64,000 bases of DNA, taken from positions 476,137 through 540,136 of the forward strand of contig NZ_CP046640.1 in NCBI RefSeq assembly GCF_017751145.1. Reading direction: 5' to 3'. Below are positions 13,627-24,276 of this stretch, piece by piece. The stretch's first letter is position 1. Each line of letters begins with the position of its first letter. Source of the DNA: Iocasia fonsfrigidae. GTDB lineage: Bacteria > Bacillota > Halanaerobiia > Halanaerobiales > DTU029. The notes below the pieces were generated by a model, which had not been told where the DNA came from, did not search any database, and worked only from the letters and a program-made list of their open reading frames with translations. A program made the translations under genes and the position numbers.

Positions 13627-13661
13627 AACCTCCTCTGGAAAATGAGGGGGTTTTGTTTTTT
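13627..13661 (+). terminator. Rho-independent terminator
   Basis: AACCTCCTC and GAGGGGGTT pair around TGGAAAAT, followed by TTGTTTTTT. It ends the galU-to-barrel gene run. An IS91-derived repeat begins directly after it. Confidence 0.85.
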
Positions 13662-13800
13662 CGAGATTGTGGATAACTTTGAAAACCGACAGATATATTT
13701 GTCTGGTTAATAGTTTATTGATTAACTATGTGTAATAAATAGTTTAAGTTAAGAAGGCTGATGTATTTGATTAAGTCTGGCTAGCGAAACCATTTTATTC
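13662..13800. repeat. IS91-derived non-autonomous unit, short form
   Basis: It contains GATTGTGGATAAC near its left end, the short hairpin CCGACAGATATATTTGTCTGG (13686-13706), and the tail TTAATAGTTTATTGATTAAC shared with units at 17103 and 24182. The right-end hairpin (GGCTAGCGAAACCATTTT, then ATTC rather than GTTC) is degraded. It fills the gap between the barrel gene and the convergent small gene. Confidence 0.7.
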
Positions 13801-13812
13801 TTCAAGTAATTT

Positions 13813-14031
13813 TTAGTATTTGATTTCATCGGTAGTTATTATTTTTTCTTTAAAATATTTGAGTTCATTGATAGTATTGTTAAGTATGTCAATTGCTTCA
13901 TTGATATTATCAATGGTAGCTACCTCTTCATCCTGGTCTCGATCCCAGATTTTTAGAAGGTTTTCTAGTGTTTCTCGCATTCTATAGCGGCAGGCATCTT
14001 TATATTTGTTGCTGGTCATTAAATCAACCAT
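13813..14031 (-). CDS. Small hypothetical helical protein
   Basis: A 72-residue acidic protein of unknown function, predicted all-helical from its heptad-like Leu/Ile spacing (IDNINEAIDILNNTINELKYFKEKI). No signal peptide or membrane segment. On the minus strand, the ATG at 14031 is preceded by AAAGGGGG at good spacing, which supports it as a real gene despite its size. It lies downstream of the radical SAM gene on the same strand, with a 106-base gap containing a palindrome. No family recognised. Confidence 0.55.
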   Translation of the reverse strand: MVDLMTSNKYKDACRYRMRETLENLLKIWDRDQDEEVATIDNINEAIDILNNTINELKYFKEKIITTDEIKY

Positions 14032-15918: not shown

Positions 15919-15956
15919 AAAAGATGTAATAATAGTTTATAGGGGTGATAAATATA

Positions 15957-16700
15957 ATGAAACAAGGGATTATTTACAGGGGTGTTATGATGGGACTAAT
16001 AACCTGTTTTCTTATTATTGCTATTCTGTTTGCTTTTAATGATAATCTTGGTGCAGCAGGGGATAATGATTATATCACTTTACAACCGCATATTATTGAT
16101 GGTCAGGAGATGTTTCAACTGAAAGAACTGGCTGCTCAATATCAATGGCTTTTAGGATATAATGCTGAAAGTAGGAGTATTTATATCAATACCAGGGGAG
16201 AACAGCTGAGTTTTTCTCTTGAAGAAGGGATTATTGACGGAAATCCATTGCCAGTAGCTCCAGTAATCTATCAGGGGAGGACTTATTTGAGTATAGAAGC
16301 AGTGAGGACTGTTTTGCAGACAGTTCTGACTGAAGATCTGCCCTCTATGATAGGTGGACTTTATACAGATGCTGATAATTATAGTGAAGGAGAGATTATT
16401 ACAACCCATCTTAGATTATATAATATCGCTCAGGAGAGTGTTTTTCTGAACTTCGGTTCTGGGCAGAGCTATGACCTTGCTTTACTACAAAATGATGAAG
16501 AAGTCTGGCGCTGGTCTGAGGGGAGATTCTTTACTATGGCCCTTATCCGCAGAGAACTGGAGTCTGGTAATAAACTGGTTTATGATGTTGAAATTGAAGA
16601 GGAGATTAAGCCTGGTGAGTATACCTTAGTGGGGGAGATAGCTACTGTTGAAAATAGGCTGGTTCTTAATCAGATTGGAATTGAGATTAGTGCTGAGTAA
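15957..16700 (+). CDS. Secreted protein with copper-amine-oxidase-N-like and BsuPI domains
   Basis: A 247-residue protein with an N-terminal membrane or signal segment (about 9-30). Residues 40-120 look like the stalk domain found at the N-terminus of copper amine oxidase-like secreted proteins (QLKELAAQYQWLLGYN, then YLSIEAVRTVL). Residues 130-247 fit the BsuPI proteinase-inhibitor-like beta-sandwich (LNFGSGQSYDLALLQNDEEVWRWS...F, then PGEYTLVGEI). ATG 15957 is chosen because AGGGGTGAT lies 7 bases upstream; GTG 15945 overlaps that site. It is probably an extracytoplasmic binding protein, and its target is unknown. It has its own promoter and terminator. Confidence 0.72.
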   Translation: MKQGIIYRGVMMGLITCFLIIAILFAFNDNLGAAGDNDYITLQPHIIDGQEMFQLKELAAQYQWLLGYNAESRSIYINTRGEQLSFSLEEGIIDGNPLPVAPVIYQGRTYLSIEAVRTVLQTVLTEDLPSMIGGLYTDADNYSEGEIITTHLRLYNIAQESVFLNFGSGQSYDLALLQNDEEVWRWSEGRFFTMALIRRELESGNKLVYDVEIEEEIKPGEYTLVGEIATVENRLVLNQIGIEISAE

Positions 16701-16762: not shown

Positions 16763-16789
16763 GGAACCCTACTGGGTTCCTTTTATTTA
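16763..16789 (+). terminator. Rho-independent terminator
   Basis: GGAACCC and GGGTTCC pair around TACT, followed by TTTTATTTA. The repeat array starts at once after it. Confidence 0.82.
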
Positions 16790-16929
16790 CGGTTAGGATT
16801 ATAGATAACTTTGAAGGCCGACAAATACATTTGTCTGGCCTATGATAACTAGTAACTTTGTAAGAAGTATTTCTAAGTAAAGTTAATAATTAGTTTTTAA
16901 GTTTGGATGGCTGCGAAGCCATTTTGTTC
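16790..16929 (+). repeat. IS91-derived non-autonomous unit 0 (short form)
   Basis: About 140 bases. The left end TTAGGATTATAGATAACTTT resembles the IS 5' end. The short hairpin GGCCGACAAATACATTTGTCTGGCC is at 16816-16840. The right end is the hairpin GGATGGCTGCGAAGCCATTTT followed by GTTC (16926-16929). No gene. Confidence 0.72.
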
Positions 16930-17198
16930 AAGTTTAGGAAATTATGCAATTTTAAAATTGTGGATAACTTTAAAGGCCGACAAATATATTTGTTTCCCTT
17001 GTCGTGCGCTGCGGTGTCCTACCTCCGCTTACTGTCGAGAAATTCTCCTTCGGCGTCCTGCCTGCGGATAATTTCTAGAGTCGTCCAACAAATATATTTG
17101 TCTGGTTAATAGTTTACTGATTAACTATGGGTAATAAATAGTTTGAGTTAAGAAAGTTGATGTTTTGATTAAGTCTGGGTGGCGTAGCCATTTTGTTC
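16930..17198 (+). repeat. IS91-derived non-autonomous unit 1 (long form)
   Basis: About 269 bases, starting exactly after the GTTC of unit 0. The left end (AGGAAATTATG...GTGGATAACTT) matches the left end of the transposon at 17471. A nested hairpin element occupies 16975-17105, and the right end GGTGGCGTAGCCATTTT plus GTTC (17195-17198) matches the transposon right end. Open reading frames across it are accidental. Confidence 0.8.
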
Positions 17199-17470
17199 AA
17201 GTTTAGGAAACTATGCAATTTTGAAATTGTGGATAACTTTAAAGACCGACCAGTATATTTACTTACCTTGTCGTGCACTATGGCGTCCTGCCTTCGTTTA
17301 CTGTCGAGAAATTGTCTTCCGGCGTCCATGCCTCCAGACAATTTCTAGAGTCGTCCAGTAAATATATTGGTCTGGTTTATTATGATGAGTAGTTAACTTT
17401 GAGTGAAAAGTGGTTCTAAGAAAAAATTAATAATTAGTGATTAAGTCTGGGTGGCGGAGCCATTTTGTTC
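17199..17470 (+). repeat. IS91-derived non-autonomous unit 2 (long form)
   Basis: About 272 bases, starting after the GTTC of unit 1 with the same left end as unit 1. Its nested hairpin element (17244-17375) has different but still complementary arms (CGACCAGTATATTTAC / GTAAATATATTGGTCTGG). The inner stem AGAAATTGTCT / AGACAATTTCT (17307-17317 / 17336-17346) is perfectly paired. It ends with GGTGGCGGAGCCATTTT and GTTC at 17467-17470. Confidence 0.8.
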
Positions 17471-17486
17471 AGGTATAGGAAATTAT

Positions 17487-18857
17487 GTGTTAAGCAGGTT
17501 TGTGGATAACTTAATAGAATTAATAAGTATTATGAAAAGAAAAGAGATACAAAAACAACATACGATTAAAAAAATATTTACTCATAATAATAACTGGAAA
17601 ATCTTTAAGGATAACAGATTATCAGAAGTGGTTCCAGCTGATATGATAGATGATGTAATTGAACAGGTTGAAAGGGCATTGGGTTGTGGAAATCCTGAAA
17701 ATGGATATACTTTATATAAATGTCTTGAATGTGGTCATGAGCATATAATTGGATTTAGCTGTAAAAGTCGTTTTTGTGTACGATGTGGCAAGAAATATAT
17801 AGATAATTGGGTTGAGAAACAAGTAGAGAATATACTTGATACAAGTCATAGACATTTAGTATTTACATTACCAGAACAATTAAGAGGGTATGTATATTGG
17901 CATAGAGATTTATTGAAAGATATGTGCGATGCAGTAAATGAATTAATTCAAGATTACTATGATAAACAATCAAAGGAAAAAGAATATCAAGTTGGAGTAA
18001 TAACAGTAGTTCATACTTTTGGGAGGGATGTAGGGTTTAATCCTCATATCCATGCTCTATTAACAGAAGGAGCATTAGATAAATATAAGCAGTGGAAGCA
18101 TATTGGATATATTTCATATCCATATTTAAGAAAGTCATGGCAGAAAGTATTACTTAATATATTTCGAAAGTATTTCAAAGAGGGCTTAAAGGTTCAGAAT
18201 TTAGTAAGAGAACTGTATCAAAAATATCCTAATGGATTTTATGTAAATGCTGAATCTAGACTAATTAATGCTAGAGGTGCAACTAGATATATTGGTAGAT
18301 ATCTAGCACGTCCAGCTATGGCTGAATATAGAATACTAGAGTATGATGGTAAGAAGGTAAGGTTTTGGTATGAAGACCATAATACGAAAAAAAGAAAAGA
18401 ATTACTGCTTGATGTATTAGACTTTATAGGTAGATTGATAATGCATGTACCTAAAAAGTATTTTAAGATGGTAAGAAGATATGGGTTATATAGTAGAGGT
18501 TTTAATAAAAAAGTAAAAAAGATAGTATCACTATGGAAATACATGAAGAAAAGACAGTTAAAACTAATAGTGGTAGAAAAGAAAAAAAGAGTAATGAGAT
18601 GGCGAGAAAATATTATAAAAAGTTTTGATAGAGACCCATTAATATGTAGGAAATGTGGTTCGGAGATGGTATTATATGAGATATGGAGTCCTAAACATGA
18701 TTTTATTTATCATTTTGAACATACAGATGAAAATGGACGACATATAAAAAGATATCCATGGGAGGAGGATCCTAGAATTGAAAGACGAAAAAGAGCGAGA
18801 CAACTGGGAACTACCATTCCATTCCCCGGACCACCAAGAAGAATGGTATGTTTATAG
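17487..18857 (+). CDS. IS91-family transposase, copy 1
   Basis: A 456-residue HUH-type rolling-circle transposase. The N-terminal zinc-ribbon is visible as CLECGHEH...CKSRFCVRCGKKY (about 85-115). The HUH metal motif is NPHIHALLTEG (about 205) and the candidate catalytic tyrosines lie in TRYIGRYLARP (about 285). A second CxxC pair (CRKCGSE) is near residue 395. GTG 17487 follows AGGA by 6 bases; ATG 17532 is an alternative without a ribosome binding site. It nicks one DNA strand at the element's right end and drives rolling-circle transposition. It differs from copy 2 by Gly-to-Asp near residue 233 and a silent change at 17609. Confidence 0.92.
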   Translation: MLSRFVDNLIELISIMKRKEIQKQHTIKKIFTHNNNWKIFKDNRLSEVVPADMIDDVIEQVERALGCGNPENGYTLYKCLECGHEHIIGFSCKSRFCVRCGKKYIDNWVEKQVENILDTSHRHLVFTLPEQLRGYVYWHRDLLKDMCDAVNELIQDYYDKQSKEKEYQVGVITVVHTFGRDVGFNPHIHALLTEGALDKYKQWKHIGYISYPYLRKSWQKVLLNIFRKYFKEGLKVQNLVRELYQKYPNGFYVNAESRLINARGATRYIGRYLARPAMAEYRILEYDGKKVRFWYEDHNTKKRKELLLDVLDFIGRLIMHVPKKYFKMVRRYGLYSRGFNKKVKKIVSLWKYMKKRQLKLIVVEKKKRVMRWRENIIKSFDRDPLICRKCGSEMVLYEIWSPKHDFIYHFEHTDENGRHIKRYPWEEDPRIERRKRARQLGTTIPFPGPPRRMVCL

Positions 18858-19047
18858 ATGTCCAAAGTGTGGGATGGATGATCATGTACCTGATTTTGTA
18901 GTAGATGAGTTTGCAATGGTTCAAAAATTGAAAGAAGGGGAAATGCCTGGAGTGGCATGTCCTGAATGTCTTACAAAGATGGTTTTTGAATCATCTTATA
19001 TTAAATACCCCTACCGTAAAACAGAAGGGGATTCTGAGTTGCAGTAG
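18778..19047 (+). CDS. Zinc-ribbon-like small protein overlapping the transposase end (copy 1)
   Basis: An 89-residue frame overlapping the last 80 bases of the transposase in another frame. TTG 18778 lies 8 bases after a strong GGAGGAGG ribosome binding site located inside the transposase gene. The protein is acidic and has two CxxC pairs (CPKCGMDD and CPECLTK, about residues 28 and 61), a treble-clef or ribbon-like arrangement. I do not recognise the family. Translation would be coupled to the transposase, so a regulatory or accessory role in transposition is inferred. A spurious frame remains possible because both copies in this window are nearly identical and give no test of selection. 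Confidence 0.5.
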   Translation: MKDEKERDNWELPFHSPDHQEEWYVYRCPKCGMDDHVPDFVVDEFAMVQKLKEGEMPGVACPECLTKMVFESSYIKYPYRKTEGDSELQ

Positions 19048-19084
19048 GGTGGCGTAGCCATTTTGTTCAGGTATAGGAAATTAT

Positions 19085-20455
19085 GTGTTAAGCAGGTTTG
19101 TGGATAACTTAATAGAATTAATAAGTATTATGAAAAGAAAAGAGATACAAAAACAACATACGATTAAAAAAATATTTACTCATAATAATAACTGGAAAAT
19201 CTTTAAAGATAACAGATTATCAGAAGTGGTTCCAGCTGATATGATAGATGATGTAATTGAACAGGTTGAAAGGGCATTGGGTTGTGGAAATCCTGAAAAT
19301 GGATATACTTTATATAAATGTCTTGAATGTGGTCATGAGCATATAATTGGATTTAGCTGTAAAAGTCGTTTTTGTGTACGATGTGGCAAGAAATATATAG
19401 ATAATTGGGTTGAGAAACAAGTAGAGAATATACTTGATACAAGTCATAGACATTTAGTATTTACATTACCAGAACAATTAAGAGGGTATGTATATTGGCA
19501 TAGAGATTTATTGAAAGATATGTGCGATGCAGTAAATGAATTAATTCAAGATTACTATGATAAACAATCAAAGGAAAAAGAATATCAAGTTGGAGTAATA
19601 ACAGTAGTTCATACTTTTGGGAGGGATGTAGGGTTTAATCCTCATATCCATGCTCTATTAACAGAAGGAGCATTAGATAAATATAAGCAGTGGAAGCATA
19701 TTGGATATATTTCATATCCATATTTAAGAAAGTCATGGCAGAAAGTATTACTTAATATATTTCGAAAGTATTTCAAAGAGGACTTAAAGGTTCAGAATTT
19801 AGTAAGAGAACTGTATCAAAAATATCCTAATGGATTTTATGTAAATGCTGAATCTAGACTAATTAATGCTAGAGGTGCAACTAGATATATTGGTAGATAT
19901 CTAGCACGTCCAGCTATGGCTGAATATAGAATACTAGAGTATGATGGTAAGAAGGTAAGGTTTTGGTATGAAGACCATAATACGAAAAAAAGAAAAGAAT
20001 TACTGCTTGATGTATTAGACTTTATAGGTAGATTGATAATGCATGTACCTAAAAAGTATTTTAAGATGGTAAGAAGATATGGGTTATATAGTAGAGGTTT
20101 TAATAAAAAAGTAAAAAAGATAGTATCACTATGGAAATACATGAAGAAAAGACAGTTAAAACTAATAGTGGTAGAAAAGAAAAAAAGAGTAATGAGATGG
20201 CGAGAAAATATTATAAAAAGTTTTGATAGAGACCCATTAATATGTAGGAAATGTGGTTCGGAGATGGTATTATATGAGATATGGAGTCCTAAACATGATT
20301 TTATTTATCATTTTGAACATACAGATGAAAATGGACGACATATAAAAAGATATCCATGGGAGGAGGATCCTAGAATTGAAAGACGAAAAAGAGCGAGACA
20401 ACTGGGAACTACCATTCCATTCCCCGGACCACCAAGAAGAATGGTATGTTTATAG
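19085..20455 (+). CDS. IS91-family transposase, copy 2
   Basis: A 456-residue transposase with the same zinc-ribbon, HUH motif (NPHIHALL) and tyrosine region as copy 1. It is intact, with Asp instead of Gly near residue 233. Both copies could therefore be active. The GTG start is in the context AGGAAATTATGTG. The near identity over 1.6 kb points to a recent duplication, or to rolling-circle replication through the element end. Confidence 0.92.
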   Translation: MLSRFVDNLIELISIMKRKEIQKQHTIKKIFTHNNNWKIFKDNRLSEVVPADMIDDVIEQVERALGCGNPENGYTLYKCLECGHEHIIGFSCKSRFCVRCGKKYIDNWVEKQVENILDTSHRHLVFTLPEQLRGYVYWHRDLLKDMCDAVNELIQDYYDKQSKEKEYQVGVITVVHTFGRDVGFNPHIHALLTEGALDKYKQWKHIGYISYPYLRKSWQKVLLNIFRKYFKEDLKVQNLVRELYQKYPNGFYVNAESRLINARGATRYIGRYLARPAMAEYRILEYDGKKVRFWYEDHNTKKRKELLLDVLDFIGRLIMHVPKKYFKMVRRYGLYSRGFNKKVKKIVSLWKYMKKRQLKLIVVEKKKRVMRWRENIIKSFDRDPLICRKCGSEMVLYEIWSPKHDFIYHFEHTDENGRHIKRYPWEEDPRIERRKRARQLGTTIPFPGPPRRMVCL

Positions 20456-20645
20456 ATGTCCAAAGTGTGGGATGGATGATCATGTACCTGATTTTGTAGT
20501 AGATGAGTTTGCAATGGTTCAAAAATTGAAAGAAGGGGAAATGCCTGGAGTGGCATGTCCTGAATGTCTTACAAAGATGGTTTTTGAATCATCTTATATT
20601 AAATACCCCTACCGTAAAACAGAAGGGGATTCTGAGTTGCAGTAG
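20376..20645 (+). CDS. Zinc-ribbon-like small protein overlapping the transposase end (copy 2)
   Basis: Identical at protein level to the 89-residue frame of copy 1, with the same TTG start after GGAGGAGG and the same two CxxC pairs. It ends 18 bases before the right-end hairpin of the element. The interpretation and doubts are those given for copy 1. Confidence 0.5.
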   Translation: MKDEKERDNWELPFHSPDHQEEWYVYRCPKCGMDDHVPDFVVDEFAMVQKLKEGEMPGVACPECLTKMVFESSYIKYPYRKTEGDSELQ

Positions 20646-20756
20646 GGTGGCGGAGCCATTTTGTTCTTAAAATTAATTTTTATCAACTCAGGTGCAAATC
20701 ATGCAGGATTTTAAGGGGAATTGGATAATATTATATAGCAGAGGATGGTGAGTAAA

Positions 20757-24003: not shown

Positions 24004-24276
24004 TTTAGGCAGGAAATTATGTGAGTTGCCGGATTGTGGATAACTTTGAAGGCCGACAGATATATGTGTTTCCCTTGTCGTAAGCTGCGGCGTCCTACCT
24101 CCGCTTACTGTCGAGAAATTCTCCTTCGGCGTCCTGCCTACGGATAATTTCTAGAGTCGTACAACAAATATATCTGTCTGGTTAATAGTTTATTGATTAA
24201 ATATGTGTAATAAATAGTATAAGTTAAGAAAGCTGGAATTTTTGATTAATCCGGATGGCCGCAAGCCATTTCGTCC
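24004..24276 (+). repeat. IS91-derived non-autonomous unit, long form
   Basis: The left end AGGAAATTATGTG...GTGGATAAC matches the transposon left end. A nested hairpin element lies at 24051-24181, with arms GGCCGACAGATATATGTGT and ACAAATATATCTGTCTGG. The tail TTAATAGTTTATTGATTAA is shared with the units at 13706 and 17105. The right-end hairpin (GGATGGCCGCAAGCCATTT) ends in CGTCC instead of GTTC. The remaining bases up to flgM hold only the promoter described at 24399. Confidence 0.8.

Follow-up and report, generated by a model that had tools for sequence, protein, structure and literature searches.

The 64,000-nucleotide stretch analysed here (the window; bases 476137-540136) lies in the single-contig, 3.93-Mb genome of Iocasia fonsfrigidae, a member of the order Halanaerobiales, to which Halanaerobium also belongs. 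Downstream of a gene at 15945-16700, the window carries full copies of an IS91-type transposon together with gene-less units, five in all, arranged head to tail from ~16789 to 20666 with lengths of 141, 269, 272, 1598 and 1598 bp. Every unit terminates in a short hairpin, followed by TTTT and then GTTC. This right-end repeat of 22 nt (hairpin TGGC-loop-GCCA, TTTT, GTTC), in which GCCA is followed by the eight bases TTTTGTTC, recurs at 16908-16929, 17177-17198, 17449-17470, 19047-19068 and 20645-20666, i.e. at spacings of 269, 272, 1598 and 1598. The mapping bears out the unit lengths and the GTTC positions (16926, 17195, 17467, 19065 and 20663) listed in an earlier note on this DNA. Since the right-end hairpin pattern has 30 matches in the 3.93-Mb genome and 0 for the reversed control, the array is far above chance. 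Its features are:

16763..16784, plus strand: putative founding target; hairpin GGAACCC-TACT-GGGTTCC (16763-16780) and then TTTT, fold -13.1 kcal/mol; read from the sequence as the intrinsic terminator of the gene upstream
16789..16929, plus strand: unit 1, gene-less, 141 nt; worn left end, right end hairpin-TTTT-GTTC, without the internal palindromic core
16930..17198, plus strand: unit 2, gene-less, 269 nt; both ends present
17199..17470, plus strand: unit 3, gene-less, 272 nt; both ends present
17471..19068, plus strand: full element F1, 1598 nt; haplotype B (139G, 714G, 1585T)
17532..18857, plus strand: F1 transposase gene, 441 aa; HUH motif HIH at 172-174 and Y2 motif YIGRY at 253-257 (numbered from ATG)
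18778..19047, plus strand: second open reading frame (ORF2) of F1, 89 aa; overlaps the transposase 3' end, has two CxxC pairs and a TTG start behind GGAGGAGG
19069..20666, plus strand: full element F2, 1598 nt; haplotype A (139A, 714A, 1585G)
19130..20455, plus strand: F2 transposase gene
20376..20645, plus strand: ORF2 of F2
20645..20666, plus strand: right end of the array, GGGTGGCGGAGCCATTTTGTTC; putative landing site, now free

Both 1598-bp units had been described as full elements of IS91 type, and each does encode an intact transposase, along with the small ORF2. The F1 transposase matches PF04986 (E 6.5e-36), PF14319 (E 2.6e-23) and NF033538, the IS91 family transposase model (286.8 bits, cut-off 125). 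All three matches are well above their cut-offs and confirm the assignment as an IS91-type HUH transposase with a zinc-binding domain. The catalytic HUH motif and the YxxxY tyrosines are present, and seven homologs all have the Y-I-G-R-Y block unchanged. ORF2 looks zinc-ribbon-like by sequence and may be an accessory factor in hairpin recognition; an ORF2-like frame is found in Halanaerobium relatives, and similar CxxC coding in more distant homologs.

Units 1-3 lack a transposase, in agreement with the earlier note, which had also assigned both transposon ends to all three. Alignment of the unit ends, a check proposed there, supports this for units 2 and 3, which share ~47 nt with the full element on the left (36/43 aligned positions in unit 2, 34/42 in unit 3) and 26 nt on the right (21/26 in unit 3), but not for unit 1, whose right end is intact and whose left end is degenerate. 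The three are only ~82-85% identical to each other and hence are not fresh copies of a single replicated unit. F1 and F2 differ at 3 of 1598 positions and represent two separate haplotypes, which are also found apart, at other loci. A miniature inverted-repeat transposable element (MITE) would be a short gene-less element with terminal inverted repeats; inspected by eye, the two ends of the small units are unlike and form no mutual inverted repeats.

A genome-wide search, likewise proposed in the earlier note, recovered about 70 small units by their left ends, eight full elements and further arrays. The eight intact transposase copies, distributed over six loci, vary at only four positions, which points to a recent burst. 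These six loci hold arrays of differing composition within unique flanks, and some combinations recur: a 382-bp unit followed by a full element at three loci (L039, L066 and L077), and the order F1-F2 at two (the window and L070). All eight full elements lie directly behind another unit, with hairpin-TTTT-GTTC in between, and by our reading 24 of 79 left ends abut the right end of another unit with GTTC, or a decayed form of it, at the joint. The junction type remains constant across units with differing left neighbours and right flanks. Right ends are constant and left ends variable, which would fit rolling-circle movement from a fixed right end (oriIS) to a left end (terIS).

Left ends outside arrays often lie just past a hairpin and T-run, usually the intrinsic terminator of the upstream gene; in the window, unit 1 starts ~8 nt past the foot of the terminator hairpin. 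Using a strict detector with thresholds of our choosing, a strong terminator T-run was found within 14 nt of 18 of the 46 non-array left ends, compared to 5.6 expected (P 3e-9) for insertion points placed uniformly within the same intergenic regions. A previous strict detector had missed visible terminators whose T-run was cut by the boundary, and was replaced by this intergenic null and a fold-energy profile, which is free of thresholds. The profile displays a single trough (mean -3.5 vs -1.8 in the control, standard deviation 0.24), reached where the window stops 8 nt short of the left end. This distance recurs in the right end of the element itself, as the 8 nt of TTTTGTTC.

The same geometry extends to homologs at 34-66% identity, mostly from Bacillota, collected by alignment-based search of genome contigs. 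In this clade, a hairpin and T-run precede 43 of 50 left ends, some of which share a genome or close relationship, vs 5 of 182 control positions taken 15-120 nt downstream of genes with the same direction (P 1e-33). These counts follow a single relaxation of the T-run criterion, prompted by false negatives; beforehand they were 40/50 vs 10/384. The fold trough reaches -8.9 kcal/mol, compared to -1.95 kcal/mol in the controls. Left ends in Halanaerobium lie behind terminator-like hairpins wherever the site is readable, and one strain carries a full copy directly after another right end, joined through GTTC. In Rossellomorea marisflavi, five copies follow five different terminators; the right end is itself terminator-shaped (CCGGGC GGTTTTT GCCCGG TTTTTCTTAT), and the copies terminate in CTTAT rather than GTTC. 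In Pontibacillus yanchengensis, as in the window, a terminator is followed first by a gene-less unit with a terminal GTTC and then by a full element; arrays resembling that of the window are found in Halanaerobium, Pontibacillus and a Clostridium sp. No such pattern of hairpin and T-run was seen by eye in distant homologs at 28-31% identity (L085, L087, L088, L090, L091 and L096).

One target could be reconstructed as it was before insertion. In a Halanaerobium genome (G033), an HD-GYP gene is interrupted by the element, with its two parts on different contigs; the left flank ends in GCATATTCAATTGAATATGC-TTTTTTA and the right flank starts with TAAGATC past the element's GTTC. Joining these flanks restores the open HD-GYP frame (DVMTNERSYKKAYSIEYAV), whereas adding GTTC breaks it, so GTTC was absent from the target and nothing was duplicated at this site, the single empty site resolved, which spans two contig ends of a draft genome. 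Orthologs of the gene in other species are uninterrupted across the insertion point. The target, TTTTTTA/TAAGATC, thus contained no GTTC, which must belong to the element, and it also did not offer the recipient GTTC or CTTG of IS1294-type elements. It consisted of a perfect hairpin and T6 on the antisense strand, within the gene, which favours recognition of a DNA structure over mere survival behind terminators. An insertion at a csp terminator in another genome (G030) was considered as a second empty site and dropped, as the right flanks of the orthologs have diverged.

Taken together, we consider it very likely that the array consists of stacked, independent insertions of an IS91-type transposon with a two-tyrosine HUH transposase and of its non-autonomous derivatives, all targeting a hairpin and T-run. 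In the mechanism we propose, the transposase would attach the element by its left end at a point about 7-9 nt 3' of the hairpin and T-run, a structure usually provided on the chromosome by the intrinsic terminator of an upstream gene; in the window, this founding site would be the terminator at 16763-16784. The right end, hairpin-TTTT-GTTC, would imitate the target and also be the site of the cut on the element's other side. Each insertion would therefore remake a landing site at its downstream edge, at which the next copy, small or full, could join, so that arrays would grow copy by copy and leave hairpin-TTTT-GTTC at each joint. Serial insertion of this kind would account for the GTTC at every joint, for the mixture of unlike units and for the same geometry at terminators, and it covers lone copies and arrays alike. 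The transposase presumably reads the DNA hairpin itself, probably as single-stranded DNA, and the strand cut would be the one carrying the hairpin and then the Ts. Judging from the protein family and the common ends, rolling-circle chemistry is probable, and the small units may be mobilised in trans by the transposase of the full element.

The mechanism put forward in the earlier note was a different one: rolling-circle replication would overrun its left-hand stop, and the resulting tandem multimers would integrate as an array. Read-through has been documented for Helitrons, in which it captures flanking DNA (PMC4778049), and has been proposed for IS1294 (PMC6052338), and the recurring pairs described above could be read in the same way. 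However, adjacent units in the array are too unlike to be multimers of one unit, F1 and F2 belong to distinct haplotypes found separately at other loci as well, and the same joint is seen with unrelated terminators, with lone units and homologs from other genera adopting the same geometry. Given that multimers also provide no reason for the left ends of lone copies to lie behind hairpins, we regard this origin as unlikely. A dependence on GTTC in the recipient, as in canonical IS91 and IS1294 targeting, would place this tetranucleotide beside the right end and generate arrays by its repeated use; GTTC does follow the right end of intact copies, and IS1294 has been reported to prefer GTTC or CTTG as its target (PMC6052338). 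Yet, if copies kept inserting immediately 5' of a single GTTC, this tetranucleotide would end up solely at the distal edge of the array, and we rejected this scheme because it predicts inner joints without GTTC, while every joint contains it. The GTTC-free target in G033 and the Rossellomorea copies ending in CTTAT further render canonical targeting highly unlikely, and the former indicates an IS91-type clade with its own target rule rather than a canonical IS91 or IS1294 element.

Insertion could also be random, with copies surviving mostly behind terminators, where they do no harm. Most copies are indeed intergenic and located behind co-directional genes, and 54 of the 55 independent unit loci, all except that at 2097092, are co-oriented with replication. 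We had considered this co-orientation as a strong lagging-strand signal and abandoned the idea, since it is mostly explained by the 90% leading-strand gene bias (P 0.02-0.03), given which the co-orientation is weak evidence. Survival alone, however, does not explain why left ends cluster at one hairpin spacing, why the clade counts so far exceed those at comparable positions behind genes, or why one insertion disrupted a gene at an antisense hairpin and T6, and we give it hardly any credence. The same holds for unequal recombination or assembly error among dispersed copies. Their near-identical ends could recombine, but the genome is a single contig, the six full-element loci carry differing arrays within unique flanks, and other genera have similar arrays.

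Several observations weigh against stacked insertion at hairpins as the whole explanation. By the detector, roughly half of this genome's lone units, many of which are old and worn, show no strong hairpin at the left end, and a few members of the clade (L212, L214, L215 and L253) likewise lack one. In addition, the hairpin at the element's own right end would fold weakly as RNA (-5.8 to -9.7 kcal/mol). Finally, the recurrence of the 382-bp unit with a full element at three loci, and of F1-F2 at two, suggests that some units move together, and such pairs may have done so through read-through.

With the IS91 family (IS91, IS801 and IS1294) and the ISCR elements, the transposon shares the two-tyrosine HUH transposase, the IS91-type zinc-binding domain, unlike ends, a right-end hairpin with GTTC and the absence of a target duplication, as seen at the resolved site. 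The constant right and variable left ends are likewise those of one-ended transposition. It differs from them in that the target is a hairpin and T-run on the left side rather than a recipient GTTC, the GTTC here being borne by the element, and in its downstream zinc-ribbon-like ORF2, its abundant gene-less derivatives and its self-targeted arrays. In target choice alone it resembles the group IIC introns, which insert at a fixed place past terminator hairpins and recognise the DNA hairpin (PMC3898094): counts and fold profiles, in this genome and in the clade, place the left ends just past such hairpins. Those introns are retroelements with a ribozyme and a reverse transcriptase, whereas the element here encodes an HUH DNA transposase; no Rfam family matches anywhere in the window, group II ribozymes included, and no intron features were seen. 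The HUH transposases of the IS200/IS605 group also read hairpins near the ends, with the target supplying the left cleavage site, and they prefer the lagging-strand template (PMC6006769). Members such as IS608 and ISDra2, however, use a single-tyrosine TnpA of their own, carry hairpins inside the element at both ends and select a short sequence as target, while the protein described here matches IS91-type families and contains YxxxY. Helitrons, too, belong to the HUH transposons and have a hairpin close to their 3' end; they are eukaryotic, their protein is larger and includes a helicase domain, and their target is a different one.

Genes adjacent to IS91-type and ISCR elements are spread by them, and what such elements recognise is poorly understood. 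We lean towards a more general proposition, namely that a widespread, mostly Bacillota clade of IS91-type elements reads the folded DNA hairpin and T-run of intrinsic terminators both for cutting at the right end and for choosing the target. One structure would then serve as end, target and left boundary; the ends would need little sequence, gene-less derivatives would arise easily and arrays would form by self-targeting. If true, such a clade, with a clear structural target available behind many genes and little harm done, would be the DNA-transposon counterpart of the group IIC introns, and a single rule would cover head-to-tail stacks of full and gene-less units. The cleavage chemistry would be testable using short hairpin oligonucleotides, and the clade might offer an origin for intergenic repeat families in Bacillota. 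In the literature searched, which does not take in subscription journals or ISfinder pages, we found no description of terminator targeting by an IS91-type element, and we consider the novelty of this specificity provisional.

The small units have further structure. They contain a GC-rich palindromic core between two copies of ACAAATATATTTGT or variants of it (16975-17110 and 17244-17375), and the 382-bp type has two extra inserts nested inside this core. The core alone is missing, with a single ACAAATATATTTGT-type copy kept, in unit 1, at 13640-13815 and at L049, L060, L067 and L073; these core-less units look as after insertion with duplication, or as after a precise loss by slippage. The unit at 13640-13815 is one of several more of the same family in the window, the others being at 24006-24270 and ~1-170, and all lie behind terminators. 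At L063 (~2281679-2282046), a small unit without a right end of its own has its left part fused to the terminal 182 nt of a full element, and these 182 nt match the other copies exactly.

Among the relatives, at least two of the distant homologs (L085 and L087) appear to have an integrase-like gene upstream. In Propionigenium maris (L230, L231 and L235), the transposase gene is apparently reversed relative to the element ends, which still lie behind terminators. At one locus in G030 (L133), about three tandem repeats of ~56 bp (TGACCTCCGAGAATGACGGGGTCGTTAATAGGTAG...) are located between the right side of the element and the next gene. Gene-less sequence with an CAGCTCCAGCGCCCAG-like motif precedes the full element in Pontibacillus (L208) and Siminovitchia (L202); this motif is presumably that of common Bacillaceae intergenic repeats, which might derive from this clade.

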